Shown here piece by piece: positions 691 through 19,967 of a stretch of 64,000 nt of DNA. How positions within the stretch are numbered: position 1 is the first letter of the stretch; each line of letters opens with the position of its first letter. The translations under genes were made by a program, and so were the position numbers. The stretch lies in IMG/VR virus record IMGVR_UViG_3300032931_001151, positions 124,001 to 188,000 of that record. One strand, 5' to 3'. The notes beneath the pieces are model-generated. The model was not told where the DNA came from. It ran no database searches and saw nothing but the letters and a program-made list of their open reading frames with translations. This stretch comes from a virus.

Positions 691-1077
691 TTAATAAAGA
701 TCCATTAGTCTAAAATAAGTAACTTTTACATCACTCATAGTAGTTGAAGGTGCTCCAGAAGTACCAGAAGTGCCGGATGTCCCCGATGTTCCGGGGGTTA
801 AGGTGGTTGTAAGTCTAACTATAACTCGATATACGCCTTTAATCCACGATTCATCAGTTTGGAGTCTATATGAGTACCATCCAGGTCTTGAATATATTTG
901 ATCCATTTGCGTGGAAACTAATAAGTTATCTTCAGTGTCATGAATCTCTATGGTAGCTCCGTCTGCCCAACGATAATCATTGGACTCGGGGGGAATAGAT
1001 TGGTCAACATATGGCTTATTACTCACTTCAATGGTAACACTCTGTCCAATTCGTATTGCGATATCTTTTGCGTACAT
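691..1077 (-). CDS. Hypothetical tail/baseplate protein with Gly-Thr-Ser repeat
   Basis: 128 aa, not recognised. The first ~90 residues look beta-rich and Ig-like (alternating hydrophobic strands, a conserved-looking GWYSYRL and GVYRVIVRL). A short low-complexity linker of four Gly-Thr-Ser triplets follows, then a short C-terminal tail. Such GTS runs are common as linkers in phage surface and fibre proteins. It sits between baseplate genes and has a good AAAGGA ribosome site before its ATG. A structural or decoration role is inferred from position only. Confidence 0.5.
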   Translation of the reverse strand: MYAKDIAIRIGQSVTIEVSNKPYVDQSIPPESNDYRWADGATIEIHDTEDNLLVSTQMDQIYSRPGWYSYRLQTDESWIKGVYRVIVRLTTTLTPGTSGTSGTSGTSGAPSTTMSDVKVTYFRLMDLY

Positions 1078-4385: not shown

Positions 4386-6491
4386 TTATCTCCTACCCAA
4401 TAAGCCAGTAGCAATCATTTTAGCAATGCTCATTTGATCATCTTGAGTTTGCCCATGTGATTTTGATGTTTGTGGAATATCATCTATTTTTTTAATTATT
4501 TCGGATAATGTTTTCATTATAATATCACTTGGAGACTCTTTTTTATTCGGTTTAGCGGTTGTAGTTCCGCCAGTGTACATACTTGTATAACTTTGAGTTA
4601 TGCTTTCGTAAAATGAAGGGGTTTCCATAGTATCCATCTTATAACTTATATCACTAACAATATCTTTAATTTCAATATTTTGATCTTTGATATCTATAAT
4701 AGCTTTAAATAATTCCGAATTATTTAGCATAGAACTAAAAGAGTTATCATCAATATTAAATGTTTTCTTTAAGAATGCCAACCCTTGCTCATTTAATGGT
4801 ATAGCAGCCTCCGGACCCGCCTCTGCGAATACCGCACGCATAGGTTGTAATGCTATCTTACCTTCAGCGAACCAATTCATGGGATTTATGGTATCTACTA
4901 CACTCTTTCCCCAACTTGCCAATTTATCTGTTACTGCGGAGAATTTCTCAGCTACAATATTGCCAACTTTAGAAGCGGCTTGTGATATCATTTTAGCAGG
5001 ATTAGAAATGAATTCCCAAATACTATTAATTATACCAGAAATGAAATCCCATCCAGATTTAAATGCTTCCCATATCCATGAAATAACGACCATTAAAGTC
5101 TTTGTTATCCAATCAATTACGGGTTGTAGATAAGTATTCCAAAGACCGACTATCTTATCAACCCACGGTTTTATATGCTCTTCATAGAACGCAAAAGCCC
5201 ATTTAAACAGTTTATATAACATATACCCAATTATTAATACTACGGCAATTATAATTATTCCCGCAATTGATGATATTAGACTTAATACGGTTATAAATGC
5301 CAACATTGGTGTTATCACCCCAATTAAATATGCCAATATGCTAAACACTAATGGTACTATGAAAAATAGCGTAGTAAACAATAACACTCCGGTCATTAGT
5401 AAAGTTGCTGCACTAAATAAAACAACTGCCATAAGTAAAGGTATTAAAAAGAATACAACTGCGAATATGGTAGCAACTACTAATAATGCCATTATTGAAG
5501 CTATGAGTAGCAATTCCAAAACAGTAAATATCATAAATGCGAATAAAGTCATTACAACTAAGAATACGGTAGCCATTGTCGTCATTGCAATTATAAACAA
5601 TGAAGCCATAAGAGTGATTGCCGTTATTGCTACCGATGCCATAAATCCAACTATTATACCTACTATAGTCAATAAACCCGTAACTATAGCCGTTGCTAAT
5701 GAAAATAGTAATGTAATTACTGTTGTCGCTAGTGCAAATACTAACGATACTATAGTGGTAGTCAAAGTAAACAAGAATGTTATAACTGATAATGTCAATG
5801 AGAATAAAAAGGATATAACCGTCATTAGTAATTCAAATGCTATTACTACTATCTCCATAATAAATCTAATAACCGTCATTATCATCTCACCAACAAATTT
5901 AATAGCATCTATTAATGGATCAAATAACTTCTTAACATATTCCATTATTTTAGCAACGGGATTGAATGATGCTAACTTAGAAGAAAATGAAGATATAGCA
6001 CCCTTAATGCTCGTAAAAGCACTTGATAGTGCTTTAATTGGTGCAATATTTTGAACTTTAGTTTTTATAGTTTCTGATAATTGCTCAATTACACTTTTGC
6101 TAAATGATATAGCTTTGAGTGGAGCCGACATAACATTACTAACGCTTGTTGCTATATTTTTATATAATATACTTGATGTATTGTTTAATCCTGCTTGAAT
6201 TGACGCCATAGTATCATAATTAGTGCCAACCTTATTATTAATATTCTCTATTATTTTCTTTTGTTCTTTAATAGGAAACTCTTCAAATCCTATTTCTTTT
6301 TTAAATTTATTAACTAATTCATCTCTTTCTTTAATAAATTCATTAGATTTCGGATCTAATCTAGTTGATAGATCGTCCAATGTGCTTTTTAATTTATTAA
6401 ATTTATCATCAATGTCGGCATTAGGCTTAGATGAAGGGATTACTCTCCTCATCAAATCTCCAGCCATTGATGCTGTTATTGTTCCTGCCAT
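4386..6491 (-). CDS. 29: Tape measure protein (gp29 role) with giant hydrophobic core
   Basis: 701 aa. Identification rests on three features. The C-terminal third carries AEAGPEAAIPLNEQG (about residues 560-575), a motif seen in many tail tape-measure proteins. The gene follows two overlapping chaperone-like genes and precedes the tube cap. The N-terminal 200 residues are helical. Residues ~205-440 form an almost uninterrupted hydrophobic block of Leu/Ile/Val/Ala/Phe/Thr segments with an 11-12 residue rhythm, enough for ten or more membrane spans; T4 gp29 (590 aa) has nothing so extensive. Tape measures often carry membrane-active segments for DNA delivery. A late promoter box lies 42 bp upstream and AAGGT precedes the ATG. 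Confidence 0.8.
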   Translation of the reverse strand: MAGTITASMAGDLMRRVIPSSKPNADIDDKFNKLKSTLDDLSTRLDPKSNEFIKERDELVNKFKKEIGFEEFPIKEQKKIIENINNKVGTNYDTMASIQAGLNNTSSILYKNIATSVSNVMSAPLKAISFSKSVIEQLSETIKTKVQNIAPIKALSSAFTSIKGAISSFSSKLASFNPVAKIMEYVKKLFDPLIDAIKFVGEMIMTVIRFIMEIVVIAFELLMTVISFLFSLTLSVITFLFTLTTTIVSLVFALATTVITLLFSLATAIVTGLLTIVGIIVGFMASVAITAITLMASLFIIAMTTMATVFLVVMTLFAFMIFTVLELLLIASIMALLVVATIFAVVFFLIPLLMAVVLFSAATLLMTGVLLFTTLFFIVPLVFSILAYLIGVITPMLAFITVLSLISSIAGIIIIAVVLIIGYMLYKLFKWAFAFYEEHIKPWVDKIVGLWNTYLQPVIDWITKTLMVVISWIWEAFKSGWDFISGIINSIWEFISNPAKMISQAASKVGNIVAEKFSAVTDKLASWGKSVVDTINPMNWFAEGKIALQPMRAVFAEAGPEAAIPLNEQGLAFLKKTFNIDDNSFSSMLNNSELFKAIIDIKDQNIEIKDIVSDISYKMDTMETPSFYESITQSYTSMYTGGTTTAKPNKKESPSDIIMKTLSEIIKKIDDIPQTSKSHGQTQDDQMSIAKMIATGLLGRR

Positions 6492-6545: not shown

Positions 6546-6830
6546 TTAATGCTTCTTTAGTTCGTTGGCACCAGAATTGGTTCCATATGCCCCGGCGATA
6601 GTCTTACAAATAACTTCGACCGCTTTATTAGCAAATTCAAAGGTGTTTTCTATGAACTTCTTCTTTTGTTCATTATCATCTGTATATTTTTTCTTGAAAA
6701 AGATTCTAAAAAATTCAAACTCAAGGTGATCAAGCTCGTTGATTTGATCTATATTTAATAAACCATTAGACCACACAAGTAACTCAATAATTTGGTTTAT
6801 CGCATTACGATACCCCAAATCAAAGGTCAT
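6546..6830 (-). CDS. Tail assembly chaperone, second (C-terminal) part; gp51-like position
   Basis: 94 aa from the ATG at 6830, helical and charged, with no recognised domain. It overlaps the stop of the upstream zinc-ribbon protein (TGATG) and lies just before the tape-measure gene, the standard place for the second tail-assembly chaperone frame (lambda gpT-like; T4 gp51 position). A perfect -1 slippery heptamer, T TTT TTT, lies at 6839-6845 in the upstream gene, and the -1 frame runs open without a stop into this gene. It may therefore be made both alone and as a fusion. The frameshift is predicted, not proven. Confidence 0.65.
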   Translation of the reverse strand: MTFDLGYRNAINQIIELLVWSNGLLNIDQINELDHLEFEFFRIFFKKKYTDDNEQKKKFIENTFEFANKAVEVICKTIAGAYGTNSGANELKKH

Positions 6831-7627
6831 CAACTGATAAAAAAAACGGCTACGTTAACCTCCTCTTGAGAAGTATGCTCACAATTAGTACAAGTGAAAC
6901 TAAATGGCAAAGTTACACCAAATTCAAGAGATTCTACATAATCCGTAATAACTTTTAAGTCATTTGAGGTTAAATTGTCCATAAATGACACTTTTTCACC
7001 AATATCCTTGAAGTCAACCTTTTGAGGCTCGCCACCCCCTATTTTAATATATACATTTTTAATAACCGCAGCAAGAATAGCAAATTGCTTATCGGTCATT
7101 GTTTTTAGTTTATTCTTTTTTATATATTCTTCACTTTGGATTTCATCGCTTCTCGTAACAACGCCTAATTCTAATACTAATTGATTATCCCCATTTTTAA
7201 TATTAATTTTAGCATTTTCCCCATCACCCTCATAGAATTTTAAATTTAAACTATCAGTTTTAAATGATATATTCTTATTTACAAATTCACATTTTGGGCA
7301 TTGGTGTGCTATTTTGCATTCCTCTTCACCGTTTGCAACTCTAATGTAGACAAGTATTTGTTGTCTTTCTTGGGTTGTCAACTCTTTTGGATTAAACTCA
7401 CCACCATCTGGTAACTCAACATACTTCATAATTATATCATCAAGTACACTATTGACTATAATCTCATTTTTACTTTCAATAGACTTTAGAAGTTCTTTTT
7501 TATCTTTTACTTTTAGCGGCCTAACTAGAATTGTTTTTCGTGAATAGCACAACTCTATAGACATTTGTGCTGAAATAACGGATTGAGAATAGGCTTTCTT
7601 GAGATCTGTAATAGAAATAGTTGACAT
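6830..7627 (-). CDS. 26: gp26-like tail/baseplate assembly protein with zinc ribbon
   Basis: 265 aa. Cys110-x2-Cys113 (with Cys104 nearby) and Cys246-x2-Cys249 form a split zinc ribbon, the signature of the T4 gp26 family of baseplate or tail assembly proteins. T4 gp26 is 208 aa. The rest is helical. It sits between tube and tape-measure genes where tail assembly chaperones lie. Codons 262-263 are Phe-Phe within T8, giving an in-frame slippery site before the stop (see the downstream gene). The minus strand carries an extended -10-like TATGTTATAAT about 20 nt before the ribosome site. Structural fate in the virion is unknown. Confidence 0.65.
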   Translation of the reverse strand: MSTISITDLKKAYSQSVISAQMSIELCYSRKTILVRPLKVKDKKELLKSIESKNEIIVNSVLDDIIMKYVELPDGGEFNPKELTTQERQQILVYIRVANGEEECKIAHQCPKCEFVNKNISFKTDSLNLKFYEGDGENAKINIKNGDNQLVLELGVVTRSDEIQSEEYIKKNKLKTMTDKQFAILAAVIKNVYIKIGGGEPQKVDFKDIGEKVSFMDNLTSNDLKVITDYVESLEFGVTLPFSFTCTNCEHTSQEEVNVAVFFIS

Positions 7628-7734: not shown

Positions 7735-8391
7735 TTAGAATACGTTTTGGACTTGTAATCCGAACGTTCCAGCAATTGAGCCAATAGTTCCGCTAACTGT
7801 CGCCGCAACTGATCCAATTCCAGTGTCAACCGATATACCAACGAAGAACGAGTCCGCATTTGCATTGGTTCCAGATCCGGCCATGGTCCAATAATCATAT
7901 GTAAATTCAACTTCAAATTGCTCTGGTTGTTCTCCACCTTCTTGGGCAACTTCAATATTTCCGACTTTTGTGGGGAACATACCAACGAATTGGTATTGAA
8001 CTACCGATTGTGACATTCTATCAAGTTGAACAACTTTAATGTTATCAGCCTTATATTCAATCGGAGCACCATTTCTCATAATTGAGGGGTCGTATTCTCT
8101 TTGCATCCATCCAACCAATTTATTACGGATTGAGTGACCTTCATCACAAAGAAACTTAACTGACCATTTTCCGTCAAATTGAGCAGTATGAGCGATACGC
8201 CACTTTTGAGTTTGGAATGGCACTTCAACGGTCCCAATAGTATACTCGGGAAGTGTAGTAGATCTTGCGAATGCTGTTACTTTTTCGTCAGACGCAAGAT
8301 AGGGAATGCTAATAAGGAATAAGTACGGACGAGAGATATCTCTTATTACATTACCAAATTGTTTAATATTTTGAATTCCATTTAGAGCCAT
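7735..8391 (-). CDS. 19: Tail tube protein gp19
   Basis: 218 aa (T4 gp19 is 163 aa). The typical tube-protein layout is present: N-terminal strand pair, a PEYTIGTVEVPFQTQKWRIA segment, a central helix carrying VGWMQREYDPS, then VVQYQFVGMFPTKVGNIEV, the family's conserved proline/glycine turn region. A C-terminal Gly/Ser/Ala-rich extension of ~40 residues is additional. It lies immediately downstream of the sheath gene, as in T4, has AAAGGAG before its ATG, and ends at a strong terminator. Confidence 0.85.
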   Translation of the reverse strand: MALNGIQNIKQFGNVIRDISRPYLFLISIPYLASDEKVTAFARSTTLPEYTIGTVEVPFQTQKWRIAHTAQFDGKWSVKFLCDEGHSIRNKLVGWMQREYDPSIMRNGAPIEYKADNIKVVQLDRMSQSVVQYQFVGMFPTKVGNIEVAQEGGEQPEQFEVEFTYDYWTMAGSGTNANADSFFVGISVDTGIGSVAATVSGTIGSIAGTFGLQVQNVF

Positions 8392-10458: not shown

Positions 10459-12198
10459 TTAATCTTCGGATTGCATCTCTTTTTCAAAATTTTCCATGTC
10501 TTGTTCTGGACTTGTATAGCCATCCATGTTGAATATTTTCTTAAAATCACTCAATACTTCTTCGTCTTGAACTTCTTCGGGTCGAGTAGATTGTTGAACT
10601 ACTATTTTACTATAAAAATCATTTTTATTATCATCCCACCACTTTGACCTTAACATATATGATACCCAGTAACTTGCGGCTACTTGGTCGTCCATATTGC
10701 CATTCCCACGTTTAGCAGCAAACTTGCCCGGCTTATTACCCTCTTCATATATTCTTAATTCAACTAATATTGAATTAGCATATATCTTACATACATCACC
10801 TTCAACGTCTTCTTTGAAATTAGTAGTTGCCAAAGGCTTTGTTTGAGCATTGGCGTTTACGCCTAATGTTTGGTTGTCATAATCGTAATAAACGTTCTCG
10901 TAGCCCTTTTCCATATATATTTCGTTTAATAGAATGACGCCTAATCCGGTTCCATTATTTTCACATATAATAGAAGCATTATTATATCTTTTAGCTATAG
11001 TTTGTGCAATAGAAGCAAAATCAAATACATTTATATCATTTCTCTTGTATAGTGCTGCTAATTCATAGTAACCTTCTGTATAGTAATTAGTTACATCATA
11101 TATCGCAACCACCGAATTATCGCTTCCTGCTCCGGAAGATACGTCAAGACCTGCAATATATACTCTTCCGGGTTGAGGGTTAGACCATATGTTGAACCAT
11201 TGACTTTCTTGCTTAATAGGGGTCTTTATCATCTTACCCAACGAATCAAGAGCCGCACCACTTAATAAGGTCTTTGAAGAACCCTCAAATTTACATTCAT
11301 ACTCTTGCAACCACGACTGTAAGGAGCCGAGAGCCGCTATAGTGTCTTTCTTAAATTGCTCATCTCTACCCGGAACCTCCCACCATTCTACTTTGAATGG
11401 AGCAAACGGATAAGTACCATCTTGTTTATTAGCACTTTGCCAAATCTCGTAAAATAGGCCGGCTGGACCATTTGGAGTAGACACCAATATAACTTGACCT
11501 TTATTTCCAATAATTGGAAAATTTGATTTCCAAAATTTATCCGCAATATTCTTAGGAACGAATGCGAATTCATCACAAAAAAGTATCTTAGCCGAGAAAC
11601 CACGCAAGGCATTTTCGGAAGTCGCTGCGCCAAATATTGCCGACCCATTTTCAAATTCTATCTTTGTGTTATTATATTCCGTAACACCTGGCTTCATAAA
11701 TGCGGGCAATCCCTCGTATGCTTTACGAATATCGTCAAGAATTTCAATGGCATTCTTTTGCTTATTAGCCAAAACTGCTATATTGCAATGCTCGTTGAAT
11801 ATAGCCGACCAAAGTAGATATATACAAGAAGTTGTAGTGTTATGACTCACTAAACCATTAGAATAAAATTCATGCTCTTCCGAATCTACTTCAACGTCAT
11901 ACATATTCTCTTCATATCCAAGATTTGATATGTAATTACATGCATAATACCCAACGTCCGTTTCAATTAAAGTTCCAATTTGAATGTCTTGTAAATATAT
12001 CGGAGTATGATCTATTGTATAAAGAATATGTGTATCGGCGGCTTTTAATTCATCTCCGTTAACCAACTTAATGTGCCATACTTCATATGGTATAGTCTTC
12101 ATTACCTTATTGATATTTTTAAATCCTTGTGGAGTTTTTATAAGATAGTTAGAAGGTACGGTAAATACTTCTTCAAATTTTCGTATCGGTTGTTCCAT
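10459..12198 (-). CDS. 17: Terminase large subunit gp17, C-terminal half fused behind the C-part of a split intein
   Basis: 579 aa. Residues 1-120 are the C-terminal part of an intein: a block-B-like ADTHILYT (Thr56/His57) and a block F/G ending EHEFYSNGLVSHN with penultimate His119 and Asn120. The extein begins at Thr121 with TTTS, which completes the Walker A motif started in the gene at 13409-13756. Walker B is ILFCDE (Asp209-Glu210); the nuclease domain shows AGLDVSSGAGSD near 351-362 and MDDQVAASY near the end. After trans-splicing the packaging motor would be about 541 aa (T4 gp17 610 aa). ATG at 12198 has GAGG 8 nt upstream and overlaps the endonuclease gene by 26 bp. Confidence 0.93.
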   Translation of the reverse strand: MEQPIRKFEEVFTVPSNYLIKTPQGFKNINKVMKTIPYEVWHIKLVNGDELKAADTHILYTIDHTPIYLQDIQIGTLIETDVGYYACNYISNLGYEENMYDVEVDSEEHEFYSNGLVSHNTTTSCIYLLWSAIFNEHCNIAVLANKQKNAIEILDDIRKAYEGLPAFMKPGVTEYNNTKIEFENGSAIFGAATSENALRGFSAKILFCDEFAFVPKNIADKFWKSNFPIIGNKGQVILVSTPNGPAGLFYEIWQSANKQDGTYPFAPFKVEWWEVPGRDEQFKKDTIAALGSLQSWLQEYECKFEGSSKTLLSGAALDSLGKMIKTPIKQESQWFNIWSNPQPGRVYIAGLDVSSGAGSDNSVVAIYDVTNYYTEGYYELAALYKRNDINVFDFASIAQTIAKRYNNASIICENNGTGLGVILLNEIYMEKGYENVYYDYDNQTLGVNANAQTKPLATTNFKEDVEGDVCKIYANSILVELRIYEEGNKPGKFAAKRGNGNMDDQVAASYWVSYMLRSKWWDDNKNDFYSKIVVQQSTRPEEVQDEEVLSDFKKIFNMDGYTSPEQDMENFEKEMQSED

Positions 12199-13354
12199 TT
12201 AATTCCTCATTTATTAAATTAACACAATAGTTAATTATAGCATGTTTGTCTTTTTTATAGTCCTTTTCTTTAATATGTATTATTTTTAAAGTAGGATTGA
12301 ATTTTATAATGTTTTCTTCTCTAATTCTATCCCTTTCTTGATTTCCCCTCTTTTCCCCGTGCCAATAATCCCCGTCAAATTCAATACATAGGTTAATTGA
12401 GGGAATAAAAAAATCAAGAAACATCATTTTCTTTTCGGGGGTTATTATCATATATTCAAAATTATCTCCAAATGGATTAATTATGTCTTCATTTTTCCGA
12501 GTTGCATAGTACACTTTTAATTCGTAAGGCAAAAATGACATTATGCTATTAAATAAATCTTGGGATATTTGCGAATAACCCTTACCATTATTCATCTTGG
12601 CTCTTGCTATTCTTTCAATTTCCTCGTCTGGTTTATTTAATAATGTTTCTTGCCATTTATTTTGTCTTTCTTTCCATCTTTTAATTCCCTCTTCCTCACC
12701 AAATTTTTCAATCATTATCTTTTTTGAAAATGTTTGTTGTCTCTCATGAACTTTTTGTTTTGCTTCTTGCTCGGAATATCCCTTTAGTACCCAATATCTC
12801 TCTGATGATGTTGACAAATGGTAGTCCGGATTTTCTTCTTTTCTTTTGGTGAGAGTATCCATCGCCCGTTCTATTCTATTGGTGTTTTTTGCATACCATG
12901 CAGTACTACAAGAAAAGCTACAAAAATCATTAAATCCCCTATCAAATCTAAATCCGTTCTTCTTTCCACATTGCTTACAATGGGTAAAATCTATAGGTTT
13001 CATCATATATTTAATATAATACTCTTCTGTTACCATATTATGTTTCTTTAAATGTCTACTTAAATTTTTCAAAGAGTCAAACAATTCCCCACATTCTTCA
13101 CATTTTATGGTTTTAATAGATTCTCTTCTCTCTTGTTCTAATTCTCTTGTAGATTTTATACTATGTACTTTTTTCTTGTGAGTAGCAAGAGAGATTTTAG
13201 TAGTGCATTTCTCTCCACACACATCGCATATAAAAGGAACTATTCCTTCATATTTCTCAAAATATTCTGCTATATTACACTTATGCACATCTCTTAAGTG
13301 TTGATATAAACAAACATAATTTGGGAACTCTTTATTACATAATTTACAAAGCAT
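12173..13354 (-). CDS. Free-standing Vsr-like homing endonuclease inside the split-intein terminase locus
   Basis: 393 aa. The N terminus has three C2H2-like fingers (CKLCNKEF...HLRDVH, CDVCGEKC...HKKKVH, CEECGELF...HLKKH) and a fourth Cys cluster (CKQCGKK...CSFSC near 125-150), probably for DNA recognition. The C-terminal domain (about 300-380) carries FLDFFIPSINLCIEFDGDYWHG, shown here only as its parts LDFFIP and CIEFDGDYWHG, matching the very-short-patch-repair (Vsr) nuclease fold with catalytic acidic residues. This nuclease type is known from 'fractured genes' where it lies between split-intein halves. It has its own exact late promoter 21 bp upstream. It likely spreads the split locus into intein-free terminase alleles. 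Confidence 0.88.
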   Translation of the reverse strand: MLCKLCNKEFPNYVCLYQHLRDVHKCNIAEYFEKYEGIVPFICDVCGEKCTTKISLATHKKKVHSIKSTRELEQERRESIKTIKCEECGELFDSLKNLSRHLKKHNMVTEEYYIKYMMKPIDFTHCKQCGKKNGFRFDRGFNDFCSFSCSTAWYAKNTNRIERAMDTLTKRKEENPDYHLSTSSERYWVLKGYSEQEAKQKVHERQQTFSKKIMIEKFGEEEGIKRWKERQNKWQETLLNKPDEEIERIARAKMNNGKGYSQISQDLFNSIMSFLPYELKVYYATRKNEDIINPFGDNFEYMIITPEKKMMFLDFFIPSINLCIEFDGDYWHGEKRGNQERDRIREENIIKFNPTLKIIHIKEKDYKKDKHAIINYCVNLINEELNGTTDTKI

Positions 13355-13374
13355 AGTTATTCTCCTTCATAGTA

Positions 13375-13382
13375 TATTTATA
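13375..13382 (-). promoter_or_regulatory. T4-type late promoter box for the homing endonuclease
   Basis: Exact TATAAATA on the minus strand in the 54-bp gap between the terminase N-half and the endonuclease. It would also drive the downstream C-half of the terminase. Confidence 0.65.
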
Positions 13383-13408
13383 TTAGTATACCATATAGGA
13401 AAGAAAGT

Positions 13409-13756
13409 TTAAATACTTTTTATCATATTGAAAAATTCTCCAATTTCTATCTTTTCAATTTTACCACTTATTTTGTCTAATATTTCAACATATTGTTGAG
13501 ATTGAACACATTTTCCACTTTGTCTACCACTCATAACAACTTTGTGACGATTTCCAACGAAATGCTCAAGTAGCCTTTCTTGGAACTCTCTTAAGTTAAT
13601 TACATGTTCTCCCGCATCACTAATAACCTTATAGTAATTGTTAGCAAAATATTTTATGTCTTGTTTACATCTTAAAATTTCGATAACTTGTTCTTCAGTT
13701 AAATTTCTAGTTTGATTTGGCTTTATAACTCCATTTTCATCATATGTAATTGGCAT
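13409..13756 (-). CDS. 17: Terminase large subunit gp17, N-terminal half plus short split-intein N-part
   Basis: 115 aa. Residues 1-82 are the terminase N terminus (NLREFQERLLEHF then VVMSGRQSGK, the first part of Walker A; T4 has SRQLGKTT). Cys83 begins a 33-residue intein N-fragment, CVQSQQYVEILDKISGKIEK and onward, carrying block A only, after which the frame stops. Splitting after block A is atypical: canonical split inteins break much later. Short N-inteins of this kind are known for TerL (the AceL-TerL type). Splicing would join Lys82 to Thr121 of the other half and restore GRQSGKTTTS. Without splicing there is no working ATPase. Confidence 0.92.
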   Translation of the reverse strand: MPITYDENGVIKPNQTRNLTEEQVIEILRCKQDIKYFANNYYKVISDAGEHVINLREFQERLLEHFVGNRHKVVMSGRQSGKCVQSQQYVEILDKISGKIEKIEIGEFFNMIKSI

Positions 13757-18080: not shown

Positions 18081-19889
18081 TCAACAAATCATATTAAATC
18101 TCATATGTCCACAATCATAAATTCTAAATAATCCATTATCTCTCGCAAGTTGTTCTTCGGTTTTCGTGGGATCCCCTTTAAATATCTCTATTAGTTTTTG
18201 TTTTGTATAAGCAAATCTATGCTTTCTTTCAAATGAAGTCCCCTCTCCAACATAATAGTATCCTGGACGAGTATTATAGTCATATGTAAATCCTAGTTTC
18301 TCGTATACTCCACCATTACCCCATCTCAAGTCACAAAATGTTATTAATCTACTATTTTTATGCCCTTCCTTAAATGCTTTAAGTAACTTATTAGCTCCAC
18401 CCATAACTATTGAATCTAATTTAGAACAAAATCTATTTAATTCCCAGTCGTACACATCAATAGATCCTCTCTTTACGATTGACGGTTTGCTAAAAGTCAT
18501 CACGGCAATTAGATCGTCTTTATTAAATAGACCATAAGCAATGTGGGATTTTCCTTGTCCTTGTATATGATTTTCTTCGCAAAACTTTAATGCTATGATA
18601 TTATCTATTTGTTCACAAGTAGTCTCTCTTGCTCCAATTTTATTTTTTGTTTTACCAAAAATATGTGATAATCTCGATTGACAAATATTCTTCTTGAGTC
18701 CCCATTCATCACTAAATATGGTAACTAATCTAATTCCTTTTTCTTTACATTTCTCAAACTTATCCTTATGATAATTAGGATCTACTTTATATTCCGTAGA
18801 ATGCCAATTCAAGCCACAAAATTCAATAGCCGTTTTTGTTTGCTCGTCGTAAATATCTAACTCTAATGGGCTTATAATACTCCTATTGTCATTAGAAATT
18901 TTTCGTCCTAATAGTCCCTCTAAATAATCTTGAACTTCGGTTTGTTGTTTTCTTTTAGTTCCTTTAAAACATTCTGGACATGATAGGTTGTATCTATTAG
19001 CATTTATTTTCTCCCAACTTTTAGAAAATTCATGTCCACAATTATTACATTTAAAGTCTATTGGGGTTGAAATGTTTGAATAAAATTTTGGATTTTTTGG
19101 AAATATATTGCTTGTTTTAAATACTTCAATTGCATGATCGTATAACTTCTTTCTATTAAAAATTTTAGCACATTGTAAGCATTTTACCCCTTTTATAAAA
19201 AGATTAAACGGCGGCTCTTCTTTCACATATCCACAAGTTTTACATTGAAACACTCCTTTATGTCTTGTACCATTATATTTGACAATATGCCAATTTGATG
19301 TTTTAAATTTTTCAACAAGTGTATCTGTTAATGCTTTATTTAGGGTAGTCGGAAGTAACTCTATAGGTTCTATAATAGGAGTCGAGTTATCTTTAATGTC
19401 TTCAATAAATATTTCTACTTTTTTCATCGGCATTAGACCAAAATTTTCTATTTTACACGATTCGCATACGTGTACTTTTCCTATATTATTCCTCTCCCAA
19501 TGAAACAAGGCTTTTATACTATCCTCTTTCCCACATTTTTTACAAATTATATTTAAAACGTCGTCCCATCTACTATAAAAATCTTTTTTCGGATAATATT
19601 CCAAATTATTAGAGTCGCAATATTTTTGTATTAACTCTTTTGGTATTTGTTTTTCGGCATTTCGCTTTTCAGTATTACAATGCGGACACCCTTTACTTAA
19701 ATCAATATTTTTACCTTCTATATTTGATATACTTTTAACGAATATATGTGATGGATTTTGAGAACATCTTAATTTTAAAAGCATATTCTTATTGAAGTTT
19801 TGAATATCTACTTTCTCTACAATTTCACAACCTTTGTTTATAATATACTTTTTAGTTAATTCTTCAAAACTTGGCTTTGGTCTTGGCAT
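18081..19889 (-). CDS. Large zinc-ribbon, Vsr-like homing endonuclease (Hef-type)
   Basis: 602 aa from the ATG at 19889, which has AAGGAA upstream; a frame extends to 19946 but would run through the capsid terminator. Residues 1-330 hold repeated zinc-ribbon modules with paired CxxC (CPHC, CKKC, CESC, CKTC/CLQC, CNNC/CPEC). Then comes a Vsr-type nuclease core, SPLELDIYDEQTKTAIEF followed by CGLNWHSTEY and later VTIFSDEW. The last ~150 residues resemble an acyltransferase-like or DNA-contact domain also seen in phage Hef-type homing enzymes. It is inserted between the capsid and neck genes and carries its own TTTTGGAT promoter motif. A selfish element rather than a structural gene. Confidence 0.82.
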   Translation of the reverse strand: MPRPKPSFEELTKKYIINKGCEIVEKVDIQNFNKNMLLKLRCSQNPSHIFVKSISNIEGKNIDLSKGCPHCNTEKRNAEKQIPKELIQKYCDSNNLEYYPKKDFYSRWDDVLNIICKKCGKEDSIKALFHWERNNIGKVHVCESCKIENFGLMPMKKVEIFIEDIKDNSTPIIEPIELLPTTLNKALTDTLVEKFKTSNWHIVKYNGTRHKGVFQCKTCGYVKEEPPFNLFIKGVKCLQCAKIFNRKKLYDHAIEVFKTSNIFPKNPKFYSNISTPIDFKCNNCGHEFSKSWEKINANRYNLSCPECFKGTKRKQQTEVQDYLEGLLGRKISNDNRSIISPLELDIYDEQTKTAIEFCGLNWHSTEYKVDPNYHKDKFEKCKEKGIRLVTIFSDEWGLKKNICQSRLSHIFGKTKNKIGARETTCEQIDNIIALKFCEENHIQGQGKSHIAYGLFNKDDLIAVMTFSKPSIVKRGSIDVYDWELNRFCSKLDSIVMGGANKLLKAFKEGHKNSRLITFCDLRWGNGGVYEKLGFTYDYNTRPGYYYVGEGTSFERKHRFAYTKQKLIEIFKGDPTKTEEQLARDNGLFRIYDCGHMRFNMIC

Positions 19890-19916
19890 TAATGTTTTCC
19901 TTTTTTGGTCTATAGA

Positions 19917-19934
19917 TATATTATAAATCCAAAA
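19917..19934 (-). promoter_or_regulatory. TTTTGGAT-type promoter before the homing endonuclease
   Basis: Minus strand reads TTTTGGATTTATAATAT. The same TTTTGGAT motif precedes several replication genes, which suggests early or middle expression independent of the capsid gene. Confidence 0.55.
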
Positions 19935-19935
19935 T

Positions 19936-19967
19936 AAAAAAGGCAAGGGTTTTATCCCCTGCCTTTT
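19936..19967 (-). terminator. Rho-independent terminator after the major capsid gene
   Basis: Minus strand AAAAGGCAGGGG, 5-6 nt loop, CCCTTGCCTTTTTT: a G-C rich stem with one wobble and a T run. It insulates the very highly expressed capsid gene from the downstream endonuclease. Confidence 0.82.

Follow-up and report, generated by a model that had tools for sequence, protein, structure and literature searches.

Does a tail assembly chaperone gene in a T4-like myovirus end in a programmed −1 ribosomal frameshift, and hence encode both a short and a long protein? The question is raised by a run of T near the end of a gp26-like gene in the window, by which we mean the whole 64,000-nucleotide stretch analyzed here, part of the 214 kb record of a T4-like virus of bacteria. 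Coordinates are those of the window, and every window feature named below lies on its minus strand. From comparison with related viral sequences, we consider a programmed −1 frameshift of the G/GT kind very probable at this gene.

Gene order and the short chaperone form

The gp26-like gene (6830–7627) is an open reading frame (ORF) of 265 codons with a TGA stop at 6830–6832, and its product is the candidate short chaperone form, TAC-N. The protein matches T4_baseplate (PF12322) with an E value of 1.9e-17 and 64.2 bits, against a curated cut-off of 24.5, and PHROG 150 (baseplate hub) with an E value of 6e-18. The 214 kb record holds one PF12322 copy. Upstream lies the gene for a predicted tail tube protein (7735–8391; PHROG 45 tail tube, E 1e-38), and the next gene downstream encodes a 701-aa predicted tape measure protein (4386–6491; PHROG 58 tail length tape measure, E 3e-13), as the first-pass annotation of this DNA had expected. 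The chaperone locus is thus flanked by the genes for tail tube and tape measure. An ORF of at least 694 aa comes next in most relatives as well, and it is shorter only at the ends of the available DNA.

Neither the gp26-like protein nor the 94-aa frame that follows it has a tblastn match among 50,697 phage records, and a sequence search of the PDB gave nothing significant. No relative was found among the genome contigs searched, which therefore offer no clue to the host; the window contains no tRNA genes. The AlphaFold2 model of the 265-aa protein has a pLDDT of 85.6. Foldseek found no significant match to it in the PDB; in a realignment of 997 chains the HK97 tail assembly chaperone 2OB9 (HK97 gp13) came first with Z 7.2, followed by a chain at 4.2. 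The superposition takes in model residues 5–100 and 95 of the 107 residues of 2OB9, with an rmsd of 4.5. Because a Z of 7.2 lies where chance matches occur, we take this likeness as support and not as proof. Of the viral models that matched the 265-aa model, most of those that are named represent baseplate hub or hub assembly proteins.

Three other loci of the window deserve mention. The gene for the terminase large subunit is broken up (10459–13756, minus strand): an N part (13409–13756) ends in intein-like sequence, a free ORF (12173–13354) with a C2H2 zinc finger and a weak match to PvuRts1I-like endonucleases lies between the parts, and the C part (10459–12198) begins with an intein C-terminal-like stretch followed by Terminase_6N. 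This arrangement resembles a split intein whose two halves flank an endonuclease gene. Beside the major capsid gene, a 621-aa ORF (18081–19946, minus strand) has zinc-ribbon-like and weak Mom-like matches. Finally, a 128-aa ORF (691–1077, minus strand) carries the repeat GTSGTSGTSGTSG and has no Pfam match.

The slippery site and its conservation

On the minus strand the gp26-like gene ends ...GAGGAGGTTAACGTAGCC GTT TTT TTT ATC AGT TGA TG..., and with its flanks the junction reads ...CAAGAGGAGGTTAACGTAGCC GTT TTT TTT ATC AGT TGATGACC.... Read directly in the gp26 frame, the heptamer T_TTT_TTT occupies 6839–6845, within a run of eight T (A6839–6846 on the plus strand) and two codons ahead of the stop codon. 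After a slip of one base, reading would continue as TAT CAG TTG ATG ACC... with no stop until 6546. This −1 frame tail, TAC-C (6546–6839), consists of YQL followed by the 94-aa ORF (6546–6830), whose length is counted from the ATG at 6828–6830. For the 94-aa frame there was no PHROG match and no Pfam match above the cut-off; the tail is modeled as three helices. The first-pass annotation had called the heptamer an ideal slippery site leading without a stop into the 94-aa frame. The in-frame site and the open frame are as it described, whereas "ideal" is too strong: in E. coli, which may not be the host, U_UUU_UUU is a weaker slippery site than A_AAA_AAG (PMC5009743). The range it gave, 6828–6850, takes in the heptamer and misses the two putative RNA signals described below.

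The motif is not rare here. The GC content of the window is about 32%, and its 56 genes hold 186 in-frame heptamers of the form XXXYYYZ, five of which are T_TTT_TTT. Since five lie in frame in window genes, the motif alone is weak evidence, and a position two codons short of a stop, from which the −1 frame stays open, is by itself no more than suggestive. Comparison between viruses carries the argument further. The 20-mer GTTTTTTTTATCAGTTRATG has 12 exact matches in 2.9 million viral contigs, all 12 at this gene junction, and these reach proteins only about 37% identical. Profile searches with both protein families, which work through the protein and were free to pick up other codons at the site, picked up none; they brought together 15 distinct sequences, counting the window, with amino-acid identities of 35–87%. 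T_TTT_TTT is in frame in every one of the 15, and the −1 frame is open in all. Loss of the T run or of the −1 frame among relatives had been named as grounds for giving up the frameshift, and both are kept in every relative found.

The codons at the junction are constrained as well. Of the 127 alignment columns in which 10 or more sequences share a residue, the only codon-invariant ones are GTT, TTT, TTT and ATC, which encode V-F-F-I at the site; the first three make up the heptamer. The fourth is ATC in 14/14 sequences, although ATC accounts for 16% of the Ile codons in these genes, and its C opens a Gln codon (CAG or CAA) in the −1 frame. That Gln, which lies ahead of the downstream ATG, is conserved in 14 of 15, while the zero-frame residue varies between Ser and Asn. 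One relative (L034) reads ATG TCC, and two others (L039 and L050) carry Asn codons. The conservation of the site, as judged from the aligned sequences, is far beyond chance.

A more distant group points the same way. In all 80 Kyanoviridae loci sampled, T_TTT_TTC stands one codon ahead of the stop, and the −1 frame is open. These 80 rank nearest among at least 587 matches and so form an uneven sample. One might take the run for a poly-T that arose by chance, the genome being AT-rich and the two adjacent genes ordinary ones, or for an assembly error, and the low GC and the five in-frame copies of the motif lean in that direction. The same site, frame and codons recur in 15 distinct relatives, however, and the Kyanoviridae loci (the closest 80 of at least 587) keep a heptamer too. 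We rejected both chance and assembly error as already refuted by this conservation and give them a negligible probability.

A different origin for the same fusion peptide would be slippage of the RNA polymerase on the eight T, giving mRNAs with an extra U. Eight consecutive T are indeed found in 14 of the 15 relatives, a length that nevertheless follows from a conserved Val together with the heptamer. The remaining relative, L050, has seven T (GCT TTT TTT) and still keeps the heptamer, and the Kyanoviridae have T6C (80 loci, the closest of at least 587). Runs such as T7 and T6C are too short for efficient transcriptional slippage. The RNA stem-loop conserved downstream of the site, moreover, fits slippage of the ribosome. 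Pure transcriptional slippage was rejected, a long homopolymer not being kept in all relatives, and we regard it as highly unlikely.

RNA signals and the overlapping ATG

The predicted stem-loop, a putative frameshift stimulator, spans 6780–6829 and starts 9 nt after the heptamer; its MFE is −18.8 with a z of −4.2. When the 15 relatives were scanned with sliding 45-nt windows for folding, one peak appeared, at +5 to +50 after the heptamer (mean z −3.35), and everywhere else between offsets −400 and +215 mean z stayed within −1.33 to +0.45. Against recoding that keeps the −1-frame protein, the stem-loop has a mean z of −3.48 and reaches p ≤ 0.05 in 12 of the 15 relatives; three fall short of that level. 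The RNAalifold consensus fold of all 15 contains no pairs, and the stems are out of register between subclades, with no common base pairs. The stem-loop thus appears to be kept in place and not in base pairs, and because no pairs are shared across subclades, its support within the clade comes from folding energy and not from covariation.

On the other side of the site, 13 nt before the heptamer, a Shine-Dalgarno-like AGGAGG (6859–6864, direct reading) is a possible second stimulator. GAGG occurs about 13 nt upstream of the heptamer in most relatives, and the Glu codon within the element is GAG in 12 of 14, compared with a background of 33%. Against synonymous recoding the combined Fisher p is 0.024, calculated over relatives that are not independent of one another. 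The case for this element as a stimulator is marginal.

The TGA of the gp26 frame (6832–6830) overlaps the downstream ATG (6828–6830) as TGATG, which offers a possible start for a free TAC-C by reinitiation. TRATG is found in 15/15 relatives of the clade, with an invariant Met while the five residues after it vary. Read at its simplest, this would mean that ribosomes terminate at TGA and restart at the ATG, that the 94-aa protein is made free and never fused, and that the T run is incidental. Such an account leaves the invariant T codons, the −1-frame Gln and the stem-loop unexplained, and Kyanoviridae can be without a start codon and yet keep heptamer and frame. The Gln is the telling residue: since it precedes the ATG, only ribosomes that had already shifted would translate it, and its conservation therefore separates frameshifting from reinitiation. 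We judge reinitiation on its own to be extremely unlikely.

A variant that is not an exclusive rival combines the two routes, with frameshifting giving the long form TAC-NC and reinitiation at TGATG giving free TAC-C in addition. We think it unlikely, though to be kept in mind, for the clade has TRATG universally on top of all the features of a frameshift. The Met may be a mere hydrophobic residue of the fusion, however, as Kyanoviridae have M or L near that point. Nor does the ATG have a Shine-Dalgarno sequence nearby, and it adjoins the start of the stem-loop. If both routes did operate, the locus would yield three products, an outcome foreign to the G/GT scheme.

The first-pass claim of a −1 frameshift that yields a long chaperone form is strongly supported by conservation, by the constraint on codons and RNA folding, and by the likeness of the modeled short form to a known chaperone. 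The junction has the anatomy of such a signal, is conserved and constrained at the level of codons and RNA folding, and codes in the −1 frame across the boundary between the two ORFs. From these observations we infer slippage itself at the heptamer, at a rate that involves a minority of ribosomes. The majority would read GTT TTT TTT ATC AGT, stop, and release the short TAC-N of 265 aa. The minority would be stalled by the stem-loop about 9 nt downstream of the heptamer, perhaps pushed toward slippage by the Shine-Dalgarno-like element 13 nt upstream, and would slip back one base on T_TTT_TTT to continue as ...VFF-YQLM... into the long TAC-NC of about 360 aa. By analogy with lambda gpG and gpGT, the tape measure protein would be coated by many short and few long copies, the long ones recruiting tube subunits through their tail part; this division of labor between the two forms is what we infer from the analogy. 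On the G/GT model, the fusion would also be made at a low, fixed ratio, and neither form would be part of the virion.

Comparison with Kyanoviridae, T4, lambda and dnaX

The gp26/'gp51' loci of the Kyanoviridae (P-SSM2, HTVC008M, Melnitz EXVC044M and C48C1) share with the window a PF12322 gene that carries the heptamer close to its end, a −1 tail (about 60 aa in the Kyanoviridae), a stem-loop after the site and a GAGG-like element before it. The last codons of gp26 in P-SSM2 are AGT TTT TTC GTA TAA, and there the −1 frame leads into the gene annotated as gp51. The gp26 genes of HTVC008M, Melnitz and C48C1 close with T_TTT_TTT TAA, beyond which lies a conserved −1 frame (...LSH..L..YY...) that begins without a start codon. 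The Kyanoviridae stem-loop has a mean z of −4.05 against protein-preserving recoding, with 52 of 58 at p ≤ 0.05. The stem of P-SSM2, which starts 5 nt after the heptamer, was tested in 56 distinct loci drawn from the closest 80 of at least 587 matches; within that set, pair 14–28 is found in three versions (U-A, A-U and G-C), and none of 1000 column shuffles reaches the observed paired fraction of 0.83. The Kyanoviridae differ from the window in their mostly T_TTT_TTC heptamer one codon before the stop and in a tail start codon that is not fixed, the downstream ATG not being at the same place in all of them. In sequence, their tail resembles that of the window clade weakly (hhalign E 0.0016, probability 16%).

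Some further points emerged from these loci. The annotated start of HTVC008M gp51 (L063, 16366–16503) falls some 50 nt into the conserved tail. Because the real tail begins at the frameshift, some small '51' gene annotations start at the wrong place. In three Kyanoviridae that lack the usual downstream stem (L065, L067 and L121), CCTC or CCCTC after the site might base-pair with GAGG or GAGGG ahead of it, which would close a hairpin around the slippery site. In the Rhodothermus phage RM378 (L069, about 2015–2260), the PF12322 gene ends TCC TTT TTT TGG ...; here it is the +1 frame, not the −1, that is open through a long tail-like stretch, and this phage might use +1 frameshifting.

T4 itself is arranged differently from the window, with two genes on opposite strands, which implies that T4 uses no frameshift here. 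T4 gp26 and gp51 both match PF12322, gene 51 being a paralogue of gene 26 plus a C-terminal tail. That tail is the best match to the Kyanoviridae −1 tail among the ORFs of the region (hmmsearch E 4e-6; hhalign E 1.9e-6, probability 90%), and the tail of the window clade has no match to the gp51 C-terminus. The shared family together with the tail match makes gp26 the short form and gp51 the long form, so that T4 encodes the two as separate genes. We reached this reading independently, yet it is already published and not new. According to a 2016 review (PMC5009743), the lambda-type layout is kept by long-tailed phages 'except T4'. Vladimirov, Gautam and Davidson (2022, Virology 566:9-15), as described where that work is cited (PMC10885494, PMC12846349), reported −1 frameshift chaperones in T4-like phages and gp26 and gp51 of T4 as the short and long forms. 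The earlier proposal that the gp26-gp51 pair is the T4-like counterpart of G/GT was therefore right but, going by those citing papers, not novel. Its equating of the 94-aa frame with gp51 needs qualifying: what matches the Kyanoviridae −1 tail is the C-terminal tail of gp51 and not the whole protein, and the window's own tail, weakly linked to the Kyanoviridae one, is at most a candidate homologue.

The kind of system is thus known, also in T4-like phages, and it is the lineage that is new among the phage records searched. Insofar as the citing papers describe it, the system of Vladimirov et al. shares with the window a short form of the gp26 family, a poly-T site near the 3' end and a long form made by −1 reading, all before the tape measure gene. 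Set against that description, the window lineage is divergent, having no tblastn match in the phage records, and it combines T_TTT_TTT with the TRATG overlap and a 94-aa tail of no recognized family.

Lambda gpG/gpGT offers the same general layout as the window, namely a short chaperone, a −1 frameshift near its end, a tail frame and then the tape measure gene. The slippery site of lambda is G_GGA_AAG, where the window has T_TTT_TTT, and lambda T has no start codon of its own. The E. coli dnaX frameshift signal consists of an upstream Shine-Dalgarno-like element, an A_AAA_AAG heptamer and a downstream stem-loop. The putative elements of the window follow in that order, in another gene and around another heptamer, with marginal support for the Shine-Dalgarno-like part. 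What emerges is a comparative definition of the signal in terms of a heptamer, a downstream stem-loop and perhaps a Shine-Dalgarno-like element. An undescribed T4-like lineage would thereby join the phages that use a G/GT frameshift, and with the Kyanoviridae alongside, it is the two-gene arrangement of T4 that looks like the exception.
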